From Rufibacter sp. DG15C (GTDB lineage: Bacteria > Bacteroidota > Bacteroidia > Cytophagales > Hymenobacteraceae), in contig NZ_CP010776.1 in assembly GCF_001577755.1 (NCBI RefSeq), positions 1,984,001 through 2,048,000 on the forward strand: a stretch of DNA of 64,000 nt, read 5' to 3'. This document shows, one piece after another, positions 6,705 to 43,919 of the stretch (position 1 is its first letter; every line of letters starts with the position of its first letter). The notes beneath the pieces are model-generated. The model did not search any database. It was given only the letters and a program-made list of their open reading frames with translations, and was not told the origin of the DNA. A program made the position numbers and the translations under genes.

Positions 6705-9700
6705 TTACCGTATTATCATTAAAAAGCCGTCGTAAGACTTTCTTTTGCCATCACATGTTACCACATTAAGCAAATAGAAGTAGGTGCCTTCACTTAACTC
6801 TCCGCCTTTCCAATCATTCTTGTAACCTTTGGTGCGATATACTTCAGATCCCCAACGGTTCATAATGATTAACTCATTCTCCTGATAGTTCTCAATGTTC
6901 TTGATTTTCCAAGTGTCATTGATATTGTCTCCATTAGGTGTGAGAGCGGTGGCAATTTCTATTTCACCCTTCACGTTCTCTGGACTCAATTCAATAGATG
7001 CTGGAGCGCTGTTACATAGTGGGCCGTTGGCTACAACTGTGATGGCACCCTCCTCACTTCCTTTAGGTGCACTAACTCTAATTCTGGTAGAGGTTTGTCC
7101 ACTTTCTAAAACCCATCCATCAGGTAGTGTCCATGTATAGTTGCGAGCACCTGGTATAGGCTCAATTTCTAATTCTAGACCTGTACAAGCACTATTTATT
7201 ACCGAGATAACAGGTGTTTTAGGAGCAAACTTAGGTTCAACAAACAGCTTTTGGCTAGATTTAATAGTACATGCATTGTAAGCCTCTACTGTAACATCTC
7301 CTTTGGTATTGCCTAAAGTAACAAGAATGCTATTGGTTCCTTGGCCAGATTGAATTGTCCAGTCAGCAGGCACAATCCAGTTGTAAGTACTGGCGTTAGG
7401 TACAGGATCAACAGAGTATCTGATATCAGTTTGATTAGCACATATATCAGTTAATCCGCTGATGGCTCCAATTGGCAGAGTATTTCCTTCATTGATGCTC
7501 ACTGGTAAGATGCTAGGGCTGCTTTCGCCGCAACCATTTAGTACTCTTACTGTCACGTTGCCAGATTTTGTACCTGCATTTACAACAATGGAGTTAGTGC
7601 CCTGACCTGATATAATTTTCCATCCATCTAGCTCTGGAACTGACCATAAATAGGAAGCAGCATCATTGACAGGAGTTACCGTGTAAGTCAATTTCTCTTG
7701 TCCAGAGCAAATAAAGGAAGCAATACCAGATATATTACCTGGGGCAGATAGTTTTGAAGCAGAGGTAGCTACAGGTAATATGGCAATCGTGCTTCTTCCA
7801 CAAGCGTTTTCTGCACTTACTTGTACATTACCTGATCCACTTCCTACTGTTGCAACTAAAGTTGTGGTTCCTTGTCCAGAGGTGATAGTCCAGCCTGAAG
7901 GAACTCCCCAAGTGTAGCTAGTAGCACCGTCAACAGGATCAATCTTGTATTCTACAGTATTGCCAGAGCAAACTATATTATCGCCAACAATAGCAGTAGG
8001 TTGAATTGGTGTTGTTCTAGAAGTAACAGAAATTTTTCTGGCAGGACTGCTGCCACAAGTATTTCTAGCAGAAACGCCCACCTCTCCATTTGCTCCATTT
8101 GTAGTAACTGTGATGGAAGTTGTTCCCTGTCCGGCAGTTATGGTCCATCCTACTGGTACTGTCCAGTCATAATTAGTTGCGTTAGAAACGGCGCTTATTG
8201 AGTAAACAAGTCCAGTGGCATTGCTACATGGATCAACTGTTCCTGTAATCAAGGCTGGCGTAGCTGGCAAAGTACCTATAATTTCTACAGACAATCTGCT
8301 GGCAGAGCTAACACCGCATCCATTACCTGCTACTACAGAAATATTACCTGGGGTAGTAGATGGTTGCACCATAATGCGGGTAGTGCCTTGGCCTGAGGTT
8401 ATATTCCATCCAGTTGGAACAGTCCATGTGTAGGTAGAAGTATTGGCAATGGCCTCTACTTTATATTCTACTTCGGTTTCTCCTGCACATACTTTTTGAT
8501 TACCCGTAATGGCAAGCGGAGTGGTAGGAGCTGTAGTGGTAGTGGTTACTTGTAAGGTGGCCGTCTCACTAACGCCACAATCATTGCTAGCTTTTACTGT
8601 TATCTCACCTGCGTTTATGCCTGCCTCAACAGTGATGCTAGAAGTTCCTGCACCTGCAGTGATATCCCAACCAGCTGGAACGGACCATGTATAGGTATCA
8701 ACACCTGGAATTACTTTTACAGAATAGGTATTGCCAGTGCTGTTAGCACAAGGAATAGTCTGAGAGGCTATGAACTCCGGTTTAGGAGGAACCATACGCG
8801 GGGTAACAGTGTATTCGCTGACAATGCTGGCGCCACAGTTATTTACTGCAGCTACTGTAATTTTTCCTGCGGTTTTACCTACTGTTACTGAAATAGTAGT
8901 GCTTCCTTGTCCTGAAGTGATTGTCCAGTCTGCTGGAACTGTCCAAGCATATGAAGTGGCACCATTCACAGGTGGTACTATATAAGAAATCCCTTGCTCA
9001 CCTTCGCACACTGTGGTAGTGGCAGCTAGAATATTTCCTGGTTTAGGAGGTGTGTTAGAAGTTGGGGCAACAGATAGTTCACTTTCTGTGCTCTCGCCGC
9101 AACCATTTACTGCTCTTACTTTGATTTTACCACTTGTGGTACCAATGGTAGCTAAAATAGTATTACCGGCAGCATTTTGAGTGTATGTCCAGCCCGTAGG
9201 CAATGTCCAAATATATGAAGTAGCACCAGTTACTGGGGCAACAGAATACTCAATGTTGGTATTGCCGGCGCAAATGTTTACTCTGCCTATTATACTACTT
9301 GGGGCTCCTGGGGCAACTTTGCTTGTTACTACTTGAATAACTTTTGCAGAGCTCTGACCACAGTTATTAATAGCTACCACAGAGATTTCAGCCGGTGCAA
9401 CACCTGCTTTTACTTTGATAGAGGCTGTGCCTTGACCAGAAGTAATGCTCCAGTCACTACCGCCTGTAATAGTCCAGTTGTAACCGGTAACATTTGTCAT
9501 TCCAGTAACAGTATAGGTCACGTTACTTTCAAGTTCACAGACAGCCGTACGGCCAACTACAGTCACAGGCGTAACAGGAGCAACAGTGGCTGGCTGAACA
9601 GTAGTGCTGCTAGCTGCACTTAGTCCGCAACCGTTTCTTGCTTTTACAGAGACAGTCCCAGAACCAGAACCAATGGTTACCTTAATAGTGCTTGTTCCCT

Positions 9701-18491: not shown

Positions 18492-18679
18492 GGCAGTGGT
18501 TTCTAAAGGTGGTGATACTATCTACCAAAGATACGGGTGAAGCTGATTCTACAAACAGAGGTAGCGCAGAACTCTCAAGAGATGTTGCACGTGGAAACGA
18601 AGGGAGATGGAACCTTAAGAGAAGGAGGGTTAAGTAGATAAAGATGGTTAGTCTTTTATGCAAACCCCTGAAAACAAGA

Positions 18680-18703
18680 AAAGCCATCATTGCTGATGGC
18701 TTT
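18680..18703 (-). terminator. Original terminator of the tRNA-Asn gene, now cut off from it
   Basis: 10-bp stem (AAAGCCATCA and inverse) with a 4-base loop that reads GCAA on the minus strand, followed on that strand by TCTTGTTTTC. It lies directly past the 3' tRNA remnant at 18709-18751. Before island insertion it would have been the terminator of tRNA-Asn. Confidence 0.8.
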
Positions 18704-18708
18704 CTGTT

Positions 18709-18751
18709 GCTCCCCCTCTTGGGCTCGAACCAAGGACCCCATGATTAACAG
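18709..18751 (-). repeat. Left attachment repeat: 3' part of tRNA-Asn
   Basis: 43 bases identical to 43845-43887, corresponding to the 3' part of tRNA-Asn from the anticodon loop (CTGTTAA) to the discriminator base plus one. Beyond 18751 the sequence no longer matches tRNA. This is the remnant half left on the far side of the integrated island. Confidence 0.93.
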
Positions 18752-18867
18752 CAATTAGCCTCTTCTCTTTCTTGAGAATTCTCATTTTGTTAGTTGTTGT
18801 AAATAAGGGGTTTAAGTAAATTTTACTTGTGGTTGATGTTGGATTTTTGCTATTGTTTTTTACTTTT

Positions 18868-18889
18868 GTTTAAACCATATTTAAACCAA
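18868..18889 (+). promoter_or_regulatory. Candidate integrase arm-type site, left end
   Basis: Two direct 11-bp units, GTTTAAACCAT and ATTTAAACCAA. The same 22-mer with one mismatch lies at 43779-43800 near the right end, in the same orientation. Position near both ends of a tyrosine-integrase element suggests arm-binding sites. It also lies in the leader of the integrase gene, so it could affect int expression. Confidence 0.6.
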
Positions 18890-18922
18890 TCCTTAGTTTA
18901 AGCAAGCAATAAATCAATAAAC

Positions 18923-20131
18923 GTGGCCTCTGTAAAAGTACTACTTTACACCTCTAAGGTGCTCAAAAACGGCGAACATCCTATAATGCTTCGTCTGATT
19001 AAAGATCGAAAAATCAAGTATGTTTCACTAGACTATTCTTGCTCTAAAGAGCTATGGGATGAGGATGAGCAACGGCCAGTAAAGAAACACCCGCATAAGG
19101 TAGAGCTTAACATTAAAATCACAAAAATGATGAATGATGCTAATAAGATCATTCTAGATTTTGATAACAATGAGCAGAACTACTCGGTCGATGATATTGC
19201 TAAAGCGCTAAGTAGAAAAGTAATTGGTAAGCGGACCGTCTTTCAATTCACTGATGAGCTTGTTCAGCGACATAAGGAAGTAGGGAAAGTCGGTACTGCA
19301 GATGCTTTTCAAAATGGTAAACGCATTGTGTCCCGGTTTACAAAGGAGAAAGACATCAGCTTTAAAGAACTAGACTACATTTTCCTGACCCGATTAGAGG
19401 ATGATCTTCTAAAGCGGAAGGTGACCGAGAATTCCATAGCAGTTTATATGCGTACTCTACGCTCAATATACAATAAAGCTATTGCAGAAGGACATGCAAA
19501 GGAAAATGATTACCCATTCAAAGCATATAAACTGACAAAACTTAACACAAAGACAAAAAAGAGAGCGCTAACCAAAGAGCAGGTAAAGAGTATCTCAGAC
19601 CATAAACTGGAGCTTGGTAGTAAGCTTTGGATAGCTAGAAGCATTTTCCTCTTCTCTTACTACTGTAGAGGTGTCAACTTTATAGACGTTGCACAACTTA
19701 AGTGGAGTAATATTGATAATGGCAGAGTACATTATACCAGAGCAAAGACTGGCCATCAATTTAATATTGCTTTGCTTCCACCTGCCTTAGAGATATTGGA
19801 ATACTATAGGGCCAAGCAAGATAAGTCAGGATTTATTTTTCCAATCCTTGGGAGTTACCATGACACGGAGCAGAAGATAAAGAACCGGGTTAAAAAGATT
19901 ATGAAGGAAGTGAACAGTAATTTGCGCACTGTAGCACAAGCGGTAAAGATAGACTTCAACATTACCACCTATGTGGCTAGGCACAGCTATGCTACAGTGC
20001 TCAAGAGACAAAACGTCTCCACTTCCCAAATCAGTGAGGCATTGGGCCACAGCAGCGAGAAAATTACACAGGTGTACCTTGACAGCTTTGAAAATACTGT
20101 TTTGGATGAAGCTGATAAGTTTTTACTGTAA
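18923..20131 (+). CDS. int: Tyrosine recombinase (island integrase)
   Basis: Protein of 402 residues, the Bacteroidetes type with an arm-binding N-terminal domain (ASVKVLLYTSKVLKNGEHP, ~1-90), a SAM-like core-binding domain (~105-205) and a C-terminal catalytic domain. Catalytic residues seen: Arg in FSYYCRGVNFIDVAQL (~250), Lys in YTRAKTGHQF (~278), HSYATVL with preceding Arg (VARHSY), LGHSS with the second His, and the nucleophile Tyr in KITQVYLDSF. Start is GTG at 18923; the product reads straight into the family N-terminus there. It should catalyse recombination between the 43-bp tRNA-Asn repeats. Confidence 0.95.
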   Translation: MASVKVLLYTSKVLKNGEHPIMLRLIKDRKIKYVSLDYSCSKELWDEDEQRPVKKHPHKVELNIKITKMMNDANKIILDFDNNEQNYSVDDIAKALSRKVIGKRTVFQFTDELVQRHKEVGKVGTADAFQNGKRIVSRFTKEKDISFKELDYIFLTRLEDDLLKRKVTENSIAVYMRTLRSIYNKAIAEGHAKENDYPFKAYKLTKLNTKTKKRALTKEQVKSISDHKLELGSKLWIARSIFLFSYYCRGVNFIDVAQLKWSNIDNGRVHYTRAKTGHQFNIALLPPALEILEYYRAKQDKSGFIFPILGSYHDTEQKIKNRVKKIMKEVNSNLRTVAQAVKIDFNITTYVARHSYATVLKRQNVSTSQISEALGHSSEKITQVYLDSFENTVLDEADKFLL

Positions 20132-20159
20132 TTCTAAAAGATTCCTGCTATATATAAAT

Positions 20160-21068
20160 ATGGGTAACACTTTTATTGAATCAAATATTCAAGCAATAGA
20201 GAGGGCTGCGAGAAATAGGGATGTCCTTAAAGAGATAGCCTTAAGTAATTTTGAAATCAAGCGAAGGGAGCTTGTGGCAAAGTTGGAGGACAAAGAAAGT
20301 CTCTATGAGCAATTAGAAGTGGTGCAATCTGAGCTTATAGCTACTAAGGCCATTATAGAGCTACCTCTTTCACAGGAGTATATACGGTTTGGCTTAAACG
20401 AAGTCACGGAGATGCATTTACAGCAGTTAAGAGAGTATTACTTAAATGTATCTGAGGAAATAGAGAAGCTAAAAATCCTGAGTGCTTATAAAACTTTTCT
20501 TGGGATGTCTAGGGAGCAAGGTATTAAACATCTGGAGACTATAGTTGGTATGGGCGCTGACGCACATGCGGAGGAGCTCCAGCTTTTAATGATGAATGTG
20601 TGGACCTGGAAGTACTACCATGGGTGCTTAATAGAAGCAAGAAAATGGTTAGGAGATCAAATATTAGCTCAAAAGGATTCTGGATCTGAAAACCCTATTC
20701 TTGAAAATACTAAAGGTATTGAGAGCAATGGCAACCTCCTCTCTAGCCCAAACAGCAAGAAACAGTACACAACAATGCAACAAGCACTAGCCATATCCTT
20801 GCTTGATAAATTCACTAAAATAAATAGAAGTCAAGATAAAAAGAGTCTGACAGCGTTTATCGGGGCTTTAACAAATTCTAGTGAAGGCGAGACTGGTAAG
20901 AAAGTAAGCCAGATTACAAATAGTAATTACGAACCTCACAAAACACCAAAGCAAAATTTAATTGATTACCAAGCTATAGAGCCATTGTTTGAAGCTTTAG
21001 AACAAAGAAATATAAGTGAGTTTATTGCTCAGAAAATCAATCAATTACAAAAAATGAATAATAAGTAG
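20160..21068 (+). CDS. Unknown protein of the island replication/integration module
   Basis: 302 residues from the ATG at 20160, 28 bases after the integrase stop. The frame is open further upstream inside int, but that part is a shadow of int. The first ~110 residues look like a long coiled coil (FEIKRRELVAKLEDKESLYE, LREYYLNVSEEIEKL). The middle carries a helical segment (LMMNVWTWKYYHGCLIEARK), then a polar linker rich in Ser/Asn, and the end is helical and basic. No enzyme motif is visible. Position between integrase and the HTH gene suggests an accessory factor for excision, replication or regulation, but this is context only. Confidence 0.75.
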   Translation: MGNTFIESNIQAIERAARNRDVLKEIALSNFEIKRRELVAKLEDKESLYEQLEVVQSELIATKAIIELPLSQEYIRFGLNEVTEMHLQQLREYYLNVSEEIEKLKILSAYKTFLGMSREQGIKHLETIVGMGADAHAEELQLLMMNVWTWKYYHGCLIEARKWLGDQILAQKDSGSENPILENTKGIESNGNLLSSPNSKKQYTTMQQALAISLLDKFTKINRSQDKKSLTAFIGALTNSSEGETGKKVSQITNSNYEPHKTPKQNLIDYQAIEPLFEALEQRNISEFIAQKINQLQKMNNK

Positions 21069-21077
21069 AAAAAAGTT

Positions 21078-21098
21078 GGGCCCCCTAGTAGGGGGCCC
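21078..21098. terminator. GC-rich hairpin after the 302-residue gene
   Basis: GGGCCCCCT and AGGGGGCCC with a 3-base AGT loop, 9 bases past the stop at 21068. There is no T-run on the plus side. On the minus strand it is followed by AACTTTTTT, so it could also act against antisense transcription. Its strength and isolation make another role, such as a nicking or replication site, possible. Confidence 0.55.
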
Positions 21099-21118
21099 TC
21101 CGGTGTATCACTACTCTA

Positions 21119-21152
21119 CATTTGGATCAGAACTTTATAAATGATCCAAATG
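21119..21152. promoter_or_regulatory. Inverted-repeat operator over the start of the HTH gene
   Basis: Perfect 11-bp arms CATTTGGATCA and TGATCCAAATG separated by 12 bases. The right arm overlaps the start codon at 21141 of the HTH gene, which fits autorepression by that protein or regulation by another island factor. Confidence 0.55.
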
Positions 21153-21494
21153 AATAACCCAACATTGTCAGACCTCCTAAATATTGCTTTAGGAGGCATA
21201 GTAAAACAGTCGCTTCTAGAGGTATTAGGAGATGCCGGTTTATTAGCACCTACATCAAATACAGAGGAGCACTACTTTGATGTCTCCCAAGCAGCTAAAT
21301 TCCTAAAAATTCCAAAGTCAACGTTATACAGCTATACAAGCGGTAGACTTATTCCTCATTATAAGAGAGGCAAGCGGCTGGTGTTTAAACAATCTGATCT
21401 GGAGCTATGGTTAACCGATAGCAAAAAGAAGACTATTTCTGAAATAGAGGCTGACGTATACAGTACTAAGAAAAAGAAGGGAGGAATAAAATAA
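21141..21494 (+). CDS. Excisionase-family helix-turn-helix protein
   Basis: 117 residues. The central ~50 residues form an HTH_17/MerR-like fold (YFDVSQAAKFLKIPKSTLYS, then GRLIPHYKRGKRLVFKQSDL), typical of excisionases and small regulators in Bacteroidetes mobile elements; a basic Lys-rich tail follows (STKKKKGGIK). The stop overlaps the start of the next gene by one base (TAATG), implying translational coupling. An internal ATG at 21150 is an alternative start. The start codon lies inside an inverted repeat. Probable roles: directing excision with the integrase and/or regulating the rep genes. Confidence 0.85.
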   Translation: MIQMNNPTLSDLLNIALGGIVKQSLLEVLGDAGLLAPTSNTEEHYFDVSQAAKFLKIPKSTLYSYTSGRLIPHYKRGKRLVFKQSDLELWLTDSKKKTISEIEADVYSTKKKKGGIK

Positions 21495-21838
21495 TGATAC
21501 TCCTATCCAATAGCAACTGTACAAAAGCAACAACACCTGCGTTGCAACGGCTTGCAACGATCATCAACAAAGAACGTGGTGTACTTGTAGAGTATGCCAA
21601 CAGAGCAAATCCTAGCAAAATACATCTAGAAAGAAGGAATGACTTTCTTCAATCACTTGCTGATTCATATAACTTGCTTTACCAAGAAATGCAGGCAGTC
21701 GCAAGACTGAGGTTTTTAGAAAAATGGTTAATAGTTGAGAAAGAGCTTGACCTATTATTAGCAGATAATAGCATTGATGGAGTGCATATAAAGCTAGAAA
21801 TCCTCAATGGTGACAATTACGGCTATATTAATCTCTAG
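21494..21838 (+). CDS. Small unknown protein coupled to the HTH and Rep genes
   Basis: 114 residues, start overlapping the previous stop by one base and ending 4 bases before the Rep-like start, so it is part of a tight three-gene unit. Mostly helical and charged (RNDFLQSLADSYNLLYQEMQ, FLEKWLIVEKELDLLL). No recognised motif. Its first codons also contain CAACG-like repeats at ~10-bp spacing (21545, 21555, 21565), similar to the iteron array in the next gene. Function unknown; an accessory role in replication is an inference from the coupling. Confidence 0.7.
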   Translation: MILLSNSNCTKATTPALQRLATIINKERGVLVEYANRANPSKIHLERRNDFLQSLADSYNLLYQEMQAVARLRFLEKWLIVEKELDLLLADNSIDGVHIKLEILNGDNYGYINL

Positions 21839-21842
21839 TAAT

Positions 21843-23174
21843 ATGCTTGATTATAAACCAGTTTTACATCCAAACAAGAATCCTAACCTATACCCGCAAC
21901 AAGCTGTTGCAACGGTAGAGCAACGTCAAGTCAACGCGAAGTCAACGCCTAGTCAACGACAAGGGCAACGGGAAGACAACGACGAGTCAACGTTAAATCA
22001 ACATGAGATCATAGACAGGTCAACACTGAGTCAACACCTTTTACCTTCAGATAACTTATCACATTCCAATCTTGGGGATATCTGGGTTAAGAAGTTTAAG
22101 CCTCTAATCGACCTTATAAACCTAAACTCATCCAGAAGGATAGTTAGAACACCTCCAATCGTTAAGCTTAATGGAGAAGGGCTGATTTGGCAGAGGACAA
22201 TCAATATAATACAAGGTAAGTTTGGCTCACACAAGAGCAGGCTTGCTGAATTGATTTGCAGTCTGCTCATAAGAAGCAACAATTGTGATACTGACTTTTG
22301 CGGACTTGCAAAAGATGAGTTTAAGCAATTTTCAGTTGCTTATGTAGACACTGAACGAAACACCAGCGAACAATTTCCATTAGCCATTCAGCAGGTTAGG
22401 AATTTGGCTGGACGGGATCAGTATCAACCATACGATTACCTAATTCCCTTTAGCCTTATTCATTATAATAGGAATGAAAGACTACCGGCAATAAAGGAGT
22501 TTATTGAGCAACTGATGATTCAATGTGACCGCCACAAATTTGTGTTGTTAGACGTGGTTACTGATTGTATTAAAGATTTTAACAATTCCTCAGAGTCGTT
22601 GGAATTGTTTGATTTCTTAAATCAGCTGATTAACGACCATGATATTACGCTTTTGCTCATTATACATGAGAACCCTGGCACAGATAAAGCGCGAGGGCAC
22701 ATTGGCACTGAGGCGGCTAATAAAGCCTCCACGATTATGCAGATTGGGTTTGAGAAGGGCGCGAACAACAGGGATAGCGATGTCATTGCGGTGAAGTTAC
22801 TAAAGCTAAGGAATGGTAAGAAGCCGGATCCAACCTACTTGTATTTTGACGCAACTACACATGCATTAGCTCCTGCAAGTCCAGAGATGGTGAATGAAAT
22901 GATAGAGGATAGAAGGAAAAAGCTTGATGTAAGTTTGCTTACAGATTGTCTTGGTAATTACCTAATGAAGCCAAAGCTACAGCAAGATCTTATCTCAGAA
23001 CTGACAGAAAAGTATTCCACTCATGCCAACACGGTCAAAACGAGACTTAAAGAAATTGCTGAAAAGGATCTTGTAATTTACAGCTGTGAGGGTTTACCAT
23101 GTTATTTAAGAATAAACAGTAGACCAGGTATTGCAACCACTTATGAATTGTTAGTAGTTGGAGAAGCTGGTTGA
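21843..23174 (+). CDS. RepA-like AAA/RecA-fold helicase of the island
   Basis: 443 residues from the ATG at 21843 (MLDYKPVLHPNK). The frame is open 12 codons earlier but that would overlap the preceding gene. Residues ~20-65 are low-complexity (Gln, Arg, Asn, Ser, Thr) and are encoded by an 11-bp repeated DNA motif. The ATPase core follows: P-loop-like IIQGKFGSHKSRLAE (~117-131), AYVDTERN, a Walker-B-like HKFVLLDVVTDC and LLLIIHENPGTDKARGH, the pattern of RepA/AAA_25 hexameric helicases in plasmids and Bacteroidetes elements. The C-terminal ~90 residues look like a winged helix. The P-loop has HKS where GKS/GKT is usual. Likely role: replication initiation or helicase loading for the excised island. 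Confidence 0.8.
   Translation: MLDYKPVLHPNKNPNLYPQQAVATVEQRQVNAKSTPSQRQGQREDNDESTLNQHEIIDRSTLSQHLLPSDNLSHSNLGDIWVKKFKPLIDLINLNSSRRIVRTPPIVKLNGEGLIWQRTINIIQGKFGSHKSRLAELICSLLIRSNNCDTDFCGLAKDEFKQFSVAYVDTERNTSEQFPLAIQQVRNLAGRDQYQPYDYLIPFSLIHYNRNERLPAIKEFIEQLMIQCDRHKFVLLDVVTDCIKDFNNSSESLELFDFLNQLINDHDITLLLIIHENPGTDKARGHIGTEAANKASTIMQIGFEKGANNRDSDVIAVKLLKLRNGKKPDPTYLYFDATTHALAPASPEMVNEMIEDRRKKLDVSLLTDCLGNYLMKPKLQQDLISELTEKYSTHANTVKTRLKEIAEKDLVIYSCEGLPCYLRINSRPGIATTYELLVVGEAG
21897..22035 (+). repeat. Iteron-like array of CAAC(G) at 11-bp spacing inside the rep gene
   Basis: CAAC begins at 21897, 21910, 21921, 21932, 21943, 21954, 21966, 21977, 21988, 21999, 22021 and 22032. From 21910 on the steps are 11 or 12 bp, with one of 22. 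The commonest unit is AGTCAACG plus three variable bases. The step is not a multiple of three although the DNA is coding, so the repeat appears to be kept as DNA. Similar phased motifs in inverse orientation (GTTGAC) occur at 40045-40084, 42949-42998 and in the palindrome at 43120-43177. Confidence 0.8.
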
Positions 23175-23189
23175 TTTTATTCTTAAAGA

Positions 23190-23249
23190 AAAAGCACCCA
23201 AACACGAACATTGCCATATATAGTGGTTTGTTTGTGTTTGGGTGCTTTT
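23190..23249. terminator. Bidirectional terminator between rep and the mcrBC operon
   Basis: Perfect 16-bp arms AAAAGCACCCAAACAC and inverse, separated by 28 bases, lying between the convergent rep gene (stop 23174) and the minus-strand gene ending at 23301. A-runs and T-runs flank both arms. Confidence 0.8.
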
Positions 23250-23300
23250 GTAGATTATTTGAAACGCTAACAAAACCCAGTAAGGCAAGTTTACATTGAA

Positions 23301-24428
23301 TTACCATCCATAATAAGTAGACTTCTTTTGTAAAGTAAGAGTGGCCTTGTCAATATCATTAAGGAGATCATCCCTGTTGGGCGTTGTAGGGTCATACCAA
23401 TCTGCCTTTTGATTTGCCCATTCAATCCATTCAGTTAAGTCTGCTAGAGTATTTCCGTTGATCCTGGCGAGTGAGGCTCTGTCAGCAATAAACTCTCTTA
23501 AAATTTTAGCCTGGTGCCATTGTTGAGCCTGTTGCAAAAGATTTTTGAAGCGGATTAGTTCTCTTTCCTGTAGCTGTTCATGCTCTCTTTGAATCCTATC
23601 TCTCTCCTGCCTTTCCTTCTCTTCAATTTGCATTTGTATTCTAGCTTCTTTCTCTTTTTGGCCCTTAAGTTGTAGGGTCCCAATAATTTCAGAAAGATAA
23701 TCCTCAAGCAGTTGTTTGCCATCTCTCCATTCTTTAGACCTATAGTTAGGTCCTATTTTAAAGATTAATATGCCACTTGGCACATAACTATGACTGCCCC
23801 ATCTAGTTGTTTTTTCTGCTATTCTAGTAAGCTTTTCTCGCAGGCTAATCTCAAACTCTTCTCCTTCAACAACTGCAAGCGTAGAGTAATGTGTGATTCT
23901 GATTTGATGGCCTCTAAGTTTCAGGCTTTTCACCAGGGCATCCATAAAGCGCAAGGCCCTATTTACGTTTGCAGGTGATATTCTGATGTTTAAATATTCA
24001 CCATAGATACTCAATAGGCCGTCACGCAGATAAGTATCCTTCTTTTCGAATTGCGCTTTTGCCGCTATTATTAGCTTGTCTGGATCGGTAAGTCTAGTCG
24101 GGACTTTTAACGCGGACTTGTGATCAGCCTCGGCTTCCTTTTGGATGGAGCTTATTAAGGATGCCTTTTGTTTTTTAAGAACAGGTTGTATTATGGTCTC
24201 GCTGGGCCCGGTGTAGTCAGTTGGTAAAGCTATCATAGGACTTTCTTTGCCTGCGCGTACTTTTGACCAATGTCCAGACCCAGGCAGGGGAATAGCTAAC
24301 GAATCACAAATCTTCTTAAAATCTTGGTAAGCGATTCCGTAACGTAGGGCAAGTTGCGTGGCGGGTTCTTGCCATACCATGTGATAGAGTTCTTCTCTAC
24401 TAAGTATGTGAGATAGCTGATTTTCCAT
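23301..24428 (-). CDS. Unknown protein downstream of mcrBC, HTH-like N-terminus and coiled coil
   Basis: 375 residues. The N-terminus (LSREELYHMVWQEPATQLAL, then IPLPGSGHWSKVRAGK) matches a pattern I associate with an uncharacterised family found in many phyla, whose start resembles a DNA-binding helix-turn-helix followed by an IPxPGxGxWxK motif. A mixed alpha/beta middle follows (ALRFMDALVKSLKLRGHQIR, ILIFKIGPNYRSKEW), then a charged coiled coil at ~255-300 and a helical end. It is the third minus-strand gene behind mcrB and mcrC (93-base gap), so co-transcription is plausible. Function unknown; a McrBC accessory role is inference. Confidence 0.75.
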   Translation of the reverse strand: MENQLSHILSREELYHMVWQEPATQLALRYGIAYQDFKKICDSLAIPLPGSGHWSKVRAGKESPMIALPTDYTGPSETIIQPVLKKQKASLISSIQKEAEADHKSALKVPTRLTDPDKLIIAAKAQFEKKDTYLRDGLLSIYGEYLNIRISPANVNRALRFMDALVKSLKLRGHQIRITHYSTLAVVEGEEFEISLREKLTRIAEKTTRWGSHSYVPSGILIFKIGPNYRSKEWRDGKQLLEDYLSEIIGTLQLKGQKEKEARIQMQIEEKERQERDRIQREHEQLQERELIRFKNLLQQAQQWHQAKILREFIADRASLARINGNTLADLTEWIEWANQKADWYDPTTPNRDDLLNDIDKATLTLQKKSTYYGW

Positions 24429-24521
24429 GTCGTAGCTTTAGCAAAACAGTAAGTTACCAGTCTTGTCTTGAGCCCTTGTATACTTAAGGCGCGTTTTTTC
24501 AAACAAGAATGAGGCAGAATG

Positions 24522-43844: not shown

Positions 43845-43887
43845 GCTCCCCCTCTTGGGCTCGAACCAAGGACCCCATGATTAACAG
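43845..43887 (-). repeat. Right attachment repeat, inside the intact tRNA-Asn gene
   Basis: The 43 bases identical to 18709-18751. They complete the 3' part of the tRNA-Asn gene, so the gene stays functional after integration. Confidence 0.93.
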
Positions 43888-43919
43888 TCATGTGCTCTAA
43901 CCGACTGAGCTAAGGAGGA
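43846..43919 (-). tRNA. tRNA-Asn (anticodon GTT)
   Basis: 74 bases. Acceptor stem TCCTCCT pairs with AGGGGGA, discriminator G; D-arm TAGCTCAGTCGGTTAGAGC; anticodon arm ATGACTGTTAATCAT with GTT; T-arm CTTGGTTCGAGCCCAAG. CCA is not encoded. Integration site of the island; the crossover falls in the anticodon loop. Confidence 0.97.

Follow-up and report, generated by a model that had tools for sequence, protein, structure and literature searches.

A helically phased CAAC array within the rep gene of a Rufibacter tRNA-Asn island is a probable in-gene replication origin

Here we describe an array of eleven CAAC words, spaced one per helical turn, in the 5′ part of the rep gene of a 25.1-kb island of Rufibacter sp. 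DG15C, and we propose that the array probably represents the in-gene iterons of the island's own replication origin. Selection acts on the DNA word CAAC and not on the peptide encoded between the units. All coordinates are positions within the window, i.e. the whole 64,000-nt stretch that was analysed (NZ_CP010776.1, positions 1,984,001-2,048,000, forward strand); the features are collected in Table 1.

Table 1. Features of the island and of its rep module, in window coordinates.
Feature	Position	Strand	Basis
Left 43-bp attachment repeat	18709..18751	+	
Tyrosine integrase of the island	18923..20131	+	
orf302, no family at its cut-off	20160..21068	+	
HTH_17 (excisionase-type) protein, rival binder	21141..21494	+	
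orf114, 57% identical in R. ruber	21494..21838	+	
Smaller CAAC cluster in orf114	21514..21568	+	Word positions, three-unit genome search
Low-stability 50 bp directly 5′ of the array, putative unwinding stretch; also the orf114/rep junction	21824..21873	.	
rep, 443 aa, RecA-fold, near AAA_25 (below cut-off), winged-helix-like C-terminus in a low-confidence model	21843..23174	+	
Extra CAAC, 13 bp ahead of the phased run	21897..21900	+	Word positions
Palindrome GTTGCAAC at the first phased unit, present in R. ruber too	21906..21913	.	Comparison with R. ruber
Phased array, 11 CAAC, one per helical turn, 5′ part of rep	21910..22035	+	Word positions, recoding tests, R. ruber comparison
Inverted repeat 3′ of rep, 21-nt arms 95% complementary	23190..23249	.	
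Right 43-bp attachment repeat, inside the tRNA-Asn gene (43845-43919, minus)	43845..43887	+	

In good agreement with an earlier, sequence-only reading of this DNA, a recount places twelve CAACs within 21897-22035 (starts at 21897, 21910, 21921, 21932, 21943, 21954, 21966, 21977, 21988, 21999, 22021 and 22032), separated by a step of 13 bp and then by steps of 11, 11, 11, 11, 12, 11, 11, 11, 22 and 11 bp. From 21910 onwards, 11 of the 12 share one helical phase, and the units are spread over all three reading phases, as that reading had also held. The array starts at codon 23 of rep, 67 bp inside the gene, and its 11 units span 126 bp. Eight of the 11 phased units have G as their fifth base, after CAAC, and every unit is followed by G or A; AGT stands 5′ of most units, and the spacers between the units differ. 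One detail of the earlier reading had to be revised: it opened the frame at 21807, and the most likely start of Rep, matching its relatives in the alignment, is 21843 (MLDYKPV).

Neither chance nor codon bias is the source of the array. With the peptide of the window gene fixed, 0 of 5000 synonymous recodings reached the chain of 11 (maximum 8), and for any 4-mer the longest chain in 300 recodings of that gene was 7. Shuffling of the codon order with the codons fixed, a check that the sequence-only reading had proposed, likewise gave 0 of 5000 at a chain of 11 (maximum 5), and the spacing is therefore not expected by chance. The corresponding gene of Rufibacter ruber, with a chain of 10, behaves in the same way (0/5000 in recoding, maximum 9; 0/5000 in shuffling, maximum 4). 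A control with the reversed motif was uninformative because CAAC is identical when read backwards. The rep array has no counterpart elsewhere in the 4.14-Mb genome: a four-unit pattern with up to two mismatches gave three exact matches, all in the rep array, and its two-mismatch matches comprise three more inside the array and two elsewhere, while a looser three-unit pattern gave 15 matches, six of them in the rep module and no other place with more than one. Tandem slippage is disfavoured as the origin of the repeats, since slippage would give like spacers and those in rep are dissimilar.

The argument that a period that is not a multiple of three cannot stem from a repeated peptide does not strictly hold, because three 11-bp units can make an 11-codon peptide repeat; a DNA-level constraint thus needed other proof. 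That the DNA pattern is a by-product of an 11-residue peptide repeat is nevertheless extremely improbable: the R. ruber gene shows its strongest lag at 33, as such a repeat would have it, but in either species none of 5000 recodings with the peptide fixed preserved the array, and no such regular repeat is seen by eye in the window peptide.

The other proof comes from the comparison with R. ruber. A Rep search across 204 genomes of the bacterial family found matches in 25, and besides the window only G141, which we take as R. ruber, is close (78-80% Rep identity). Its rep carries 10 phased CAACs at the equivalent place. In an ungapped, in-frame block that we anchored on GTTGCAAC (a free protein alignment sets the gap elsewhere), 20 of 20 CAAC columns and 9 of 31 spacer columns are identical (Fisher 1.7e-7), and third codon positions are retained in 6/6 cases inside CAAC and in 2/11 outside; these column counts lean on the chosen anchor, whereas the existence of phased arrays in both species does not. 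For the Rep body, protein identity is 90% and 58% of third positions are retained, and at the DNA level the two modules are ~97% identical in the HTH gene, 63-69% in orf114, 51-64% in the array and ~80% in the rep body. Since the CAAC columns are kept while spacers and peptide diverge, selection acts on the DNA word. A comparison of homologues had been suggested by the sequence-only reading, and in the sole close homologue the outcome is as it had anticipated, with phased CAACs kept and the peptide diverged. The smaller CAAC cluster in orf114 is also retained in R. ruber; it provides little proof, as its peptide is fairly well conserved too.

What would such an array do? We infer an origin at the array, Rep as its binder and unwinding next to it. 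An island DNA-binding protein, most likely Rep via its winged-helix-like C-terminal part, would load onto the CAAC units, all of which would face the same side of the helix; the AT-rich stretch ahead of the array would then open and the Rep helicase ring would be loaded there. Because the array doubles as protein code, it would sit in a linker whose sequence hardly matters. Among the eight least stable windows listed for 18600-24500 the stretch at 21824 ranks third, the equivalent place in L057 (L057 2744) holds the second least stable one, and in both species low-stability DNA lies 5′ of the array, with the qualification that other windows of the region are as unstable and that the site is a gene junction.

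Rep itself lies close to the RecA-fold AAA_25 family (PF13481), scoring 21.8 bits against a curated cut-off of 27, and 16 of 27 relatives match that family at E ≤0.1. Searched singly against solved structures, Rep finds RadA at E ~0.04; a profile of the 27 Reps finds none at E 0.01. No family match was obtained to DUF1376 (PF07120) or to O-like families; a search for PF07120 gave matches in 0 of 16 genomes of the genus, but as no control genome matched either, it does not imply absence. Partial matches at <60% identity exist among plasmid and phage records, and none was found in viral contigs. Structure models, made from two rows each, are poor (mean pLDDT 38.5 and 52.9). In a low-confidence model, residues 363-438 are arranged as helix, strand, helix, helix, strand, strand and strand, as in a winged helix. 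The C-terminal part of Rep is our first-choice candidate reader of the array. No DNA-binding domain is encoded ahead of the array in rep, and this, together with the lack of an O-like family match, weakens the origin reading.

Support for an origin comes from viral contigs, where one-turn in-gene arrays are linked to initiator genes. In the viral collection, at least 120 stretches contain five exact CAACs spaced at period 11, and 80 loci were read. Of the loci read, 25 have dissimilar spacers, defined as a mean pairwise identity of the four spacers <0.75; for 23 of these 25 the array falls within a same-strand ORF, and 21 of these 23 ORFs are 200-450 residues long. The same holds for GAAG at period 11 (24/29; 111 stretches, 79 of the 80 loci listed read). 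Same-strand ORFs cover 9 of 17 loci for CAAC at period 10 (at least 120 stretches, 80 loci read), 0/6 at period 13 and 0/2 at period 17 (54 and 17 stretches found, all read). With a spacer cut-off of <0.60 the figures are 9/10 for CAAC-11, 4/10 for CAAC-10, 0/3 for CAAC-13, 0/0 for CAAC-17 and 10/13 for GAAG-11; many of the viral loci are kin. Since GAAG at period 11 behaves like CAAC, the signature is the period, i.e. about one helical turn inside an initiator gene, and the core varies.

As to the genes themselves, ten array-bearing proteins, hand-picked rather than sampled from the 25 and in some cases (e.g. L158, L165) with near-identical spacers, all match initiator, helicase-loader or primosomal families (10/10), four of them (one below the cut-off) being assigned to DUF1376 by E-value. 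Across all 64 ORFs that cover CAAC-11 arrays, counting those with near-identical spacers, the 25 commonest families comprise 18 named ones, and all 18 are replication families; the commonest is found in 27 of the 64. For 48 GAAG-11 ORFs the three commonest families are unnamed, and the 25 families listed include 13 for replication and one endonuclease. Six of eight CAAC period-10 genes match those same unnamed families and two match nothing. The period is also visible in genes chosen irrespective of CAAC: in nucleotides 271-480 of 30 homologues of one DUF1376 initiator, selected from 80 for their spread of identity, lag 11 is the strongest of lags 5-33 (0.431, compared with 0.397 for lag 22 and 0.377 for lag 33). 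The longest strict chain is a 7-bp heptad in 26 of the 30 and an 11-bp array in four. In L168, L309, L323 and other DUF1376 genes (around nucleotides 320-420), 11-bp CAAC units are directly followed by a 7-bp AACCA array, a layout that may reflect a two-part origin plan.

The association of viral one-turn in-gene arrays with initiator genes favours the origin reading, and it also bears on the alternative that the array is an operator, on which Rep or another island protein lines up so as to repress rep or titrate copy number. The position of the array, 67 bp inside rep in DNA under selection, would suit such a role, and binding for control and binding for initiation look alike here. A repressor site would, however, not need 11 units over 126 bp, and period-11 arrays within viral genes go with initiators. 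We therefore consider an operator unlikely.

The island is bounded by 43-bp direct repeats that are part of tRNA-Asn, and its module has the order orf302, HTH_17, orf114, rep. Its cargo (18709-43887) includes a type I restriction system, a McrC-type protein with an AAA partner, a TmtA-like protein and an IS1595-type transposase. The HTH_17 protein (49.1 bits against a family cut-off of 27) is encoded beside the array and raises a further alternative, namely that this excisionase-type protein coats the array as a head-to-tail filament that serves control or excision. There are precedents on direct repeats: in the cited portions of the respective reports, BldC is described as binding them head to tail as a filament with one turn per subunit (PMC5859096), and RdfS is proposed to act like BldC (PMC11963761). 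The likeness is that of an HTH_17-type protein encoded next to an array, and the two array-bearing islands share ~97% DNA identity in the HTH gene. The sites described for BldC and RdfS in those portions are, however, promoters or attP with weak or no consensus (PMC5859096, PMC11963761), in contrast to a strict CAAC within rep. Moreover, no array was found in the L059 and L060 islands, the HTH recognition region of which is very similar by eye, and the array lies ~3 kb from the attachment site that adjoins the integrase. Such a filament is thus quite unlikely.

A further candidate site follows rep. An inverted repeat like that of the window is present 3′ of rep in L057, L058, L059 and L060, i.e. 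in 5/5 related modules compared, and could be an origin, part of an origin, a terminator or some other site; that it could be the true site weakens the assignment of the origin to the array. Its arms are near-identical (ACCCAAACAC..AACA) and its centre is TATATA.

The distribution of the array among more distant relatives weakens the origin reading as well, because the array is found in one close relative only. The Reps of G172, G159 and G149 share 57-59% identity with that of the window (62-64% over the aligned part) and have ~34 fewer residues ahead of the conserved PPI-KLNG motif; no array was found in their rep genes, and their C-termini look similar to that of the window. Scanning 34 rep modules for degenerate one-turn arrays, we found nine clearly above the best of 68 shuffled controls (3.3): the window (7.64), R. 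ruber (7.28), L058 (4.98) and six with the core ATTAAC located 3′ of rep (L079, L082, L083, L086, L087 and L089; 4.3-5.3), several of these ATTAAC loci being close kin. L070 is marginal (3.32) and the other 24 are not above the controls. The L058 array has the core CAGACA and is embedded in a downstream gene whose product carries an HTH at its N-terminus; its CAGAC counterpart in the sister module L060 is weak. Other branches of the island have one-turn arrays in their rep modules with different cores and in different places, which speaks for the origin reading.

The ATTAAC arrays are intergenic, with a 10-bp period (L082:7279-7329 and L087:7307-7347 in rep-forward orientation; similar in L083, L086, L089, L106 and L110), adjoin a hairpin and precede a gene that is ribbon-helix-helix-like by eye. 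Long AGCAAC arrays of period 10-11 occur at three places of one genome (L059:330-700, G159:C15:35637 and G159:C34:7552), one of them close to a frame for a serine resolvase and another close to a transposase frame; the L059 array, 5 kb upstream of rep, was disregarded because two further arrays of this kind occur elsewhere in the genome.

CAAC arrays are not confined to origins. The four-unit period-11 pattern has matches in 15 of 204 genomes of the bacterial family, some of them near-perfect tandem repeats, and 13 places were inspected. In L147 the array lies inside a prophage gene that scores over the cut-off for DUF1376 and matches primosomal families, the next gene being dnaB-like by eye, and this prophage case supports the origin reading; in L146 the array lies beside a Rep_3 initiator. 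Elsewhere the surroundings differ: L155 has 17 CAAC units at 10 and 11 bp (6817-6986, reverse-strand coordinates) in the N-terminal portion of a frame for a large serine recombinase; the arrays of L152 and L153 are near small serine recombinases, that of L145 is in a phage-like region (by eye) and that of L156 is near transposase-like frames; and those of L148, L150, L151, L154 and L157 adjoin ordinary-looking genes. For L149 the script selected a different chain. Arrays of the same core beside non-replication genes weaken the origin reading. Among the controls, AACC at period 11 is found in 7/204 genomes, mostly as perfect tandem repeats, and CAAC at period 14 in 77/204; the latter says nothing on period 11, since the places listed are largely 7-bp CAAC heptads.

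Such CAACNNN heptad arrays are frequent in many Hymenobacter-like genomes (e.g. G011:C3:92985) and are akin to the TAACTGA heptads, short AAC-containing direct repeats that have been reported in five Bacteroidetes too, in the part of that account used here (PMC4679880). The TAACTGA units are 7 bp long, identical and, in the same part of the account, mostly intergenic (PMC4679880), unlike the island array with its period of 11. CAAC arrays between ordinary genes and the frequent heptads would fit a lineage-specific repeat without a replication role, tolerated in the Rep linker. We regard this as very unlikely, given that CAAC is kept and the spacers differ across a divergence that leaves 58% of third positions, and that the genome has no other such cluster.

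Many phage origins are located in initiator genes, and the lambda iteron is longer than 11 bp. In lambdoid phages, according to the section of the report drawn on here, the middle of O holds the origin, which combines iterons with an AT-rich tract; in Stx phages, O gains 13 residues from two additional iterons, and a predicted structure suggests that these residues make no DNA contact (PMC7466680). The island array resembles that arrangement, as far as the section describes it, in having direct repeats inside a replication gene (PMC7466680), and the low-stability stretch beside them is a candidate counterpart of the AT-rich tract. It differs in its 11-bp unit, in a gene that encodes a RecA-fold Rep rather than O, and in lying near the gene start without a preceding domain. 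The parallel to lambda O drawn by the sequence-only reading is hence sustained in part: other phages do have one-turn arrays in their initiator genes, but Rep is not O-like and three homologues have no array in rep. Closer in detail are the arrays of phage DUF1376, DnaD-like and O-like initiator genes, with which the island array shares the CAAC core, the period of 11, variable spacers, the strand and a linker-coding position. However, the phage arrays follow an N-terminal domain by ~110 codons, the DUF1376 set adds the 7-bp AACCA array, and Rep matches none of these families. In the Francisella prophage KIRK, a putative origin with direct repeats is placed in the replication gene fhv_0043 (Phg_2220_C) in the passage cited (PMC7924643); as in the island, the repeats lie in a replication gene, and by that passage KIRK differs in its gene family and its fewer units, its origin being likewise a predicted one (PMC7924643). 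Among titles and abstract starts in the open literature, we found none on 11-bp CAAC arrays in such genes.

It is quite possible, and far from assured, that short direct repeats set one per turn in coding sequence are a general, letter-independent mark of origins within replication genes, common to unrelated phage initiator families and to the RecA-fold Rep of the island, and that the array moves among homologous island modules, lying in rep for GTCAACG, in a downstream HTH gene for CAGACA and in intergenic DNA for ATTAAC. Were this true, the origins of mobile elements could be found from period alone. The rep array is a clear case of two codes on one stretch of DNA, with the DNA word kept and the protein left as a free linker. 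Origins have seldom been identified for integrated islands; should in-gene arrays of helical period mark them, they would be readable from sequence in phages, satellites and islands with unrelated initiators, and would be testable by silent recoding.
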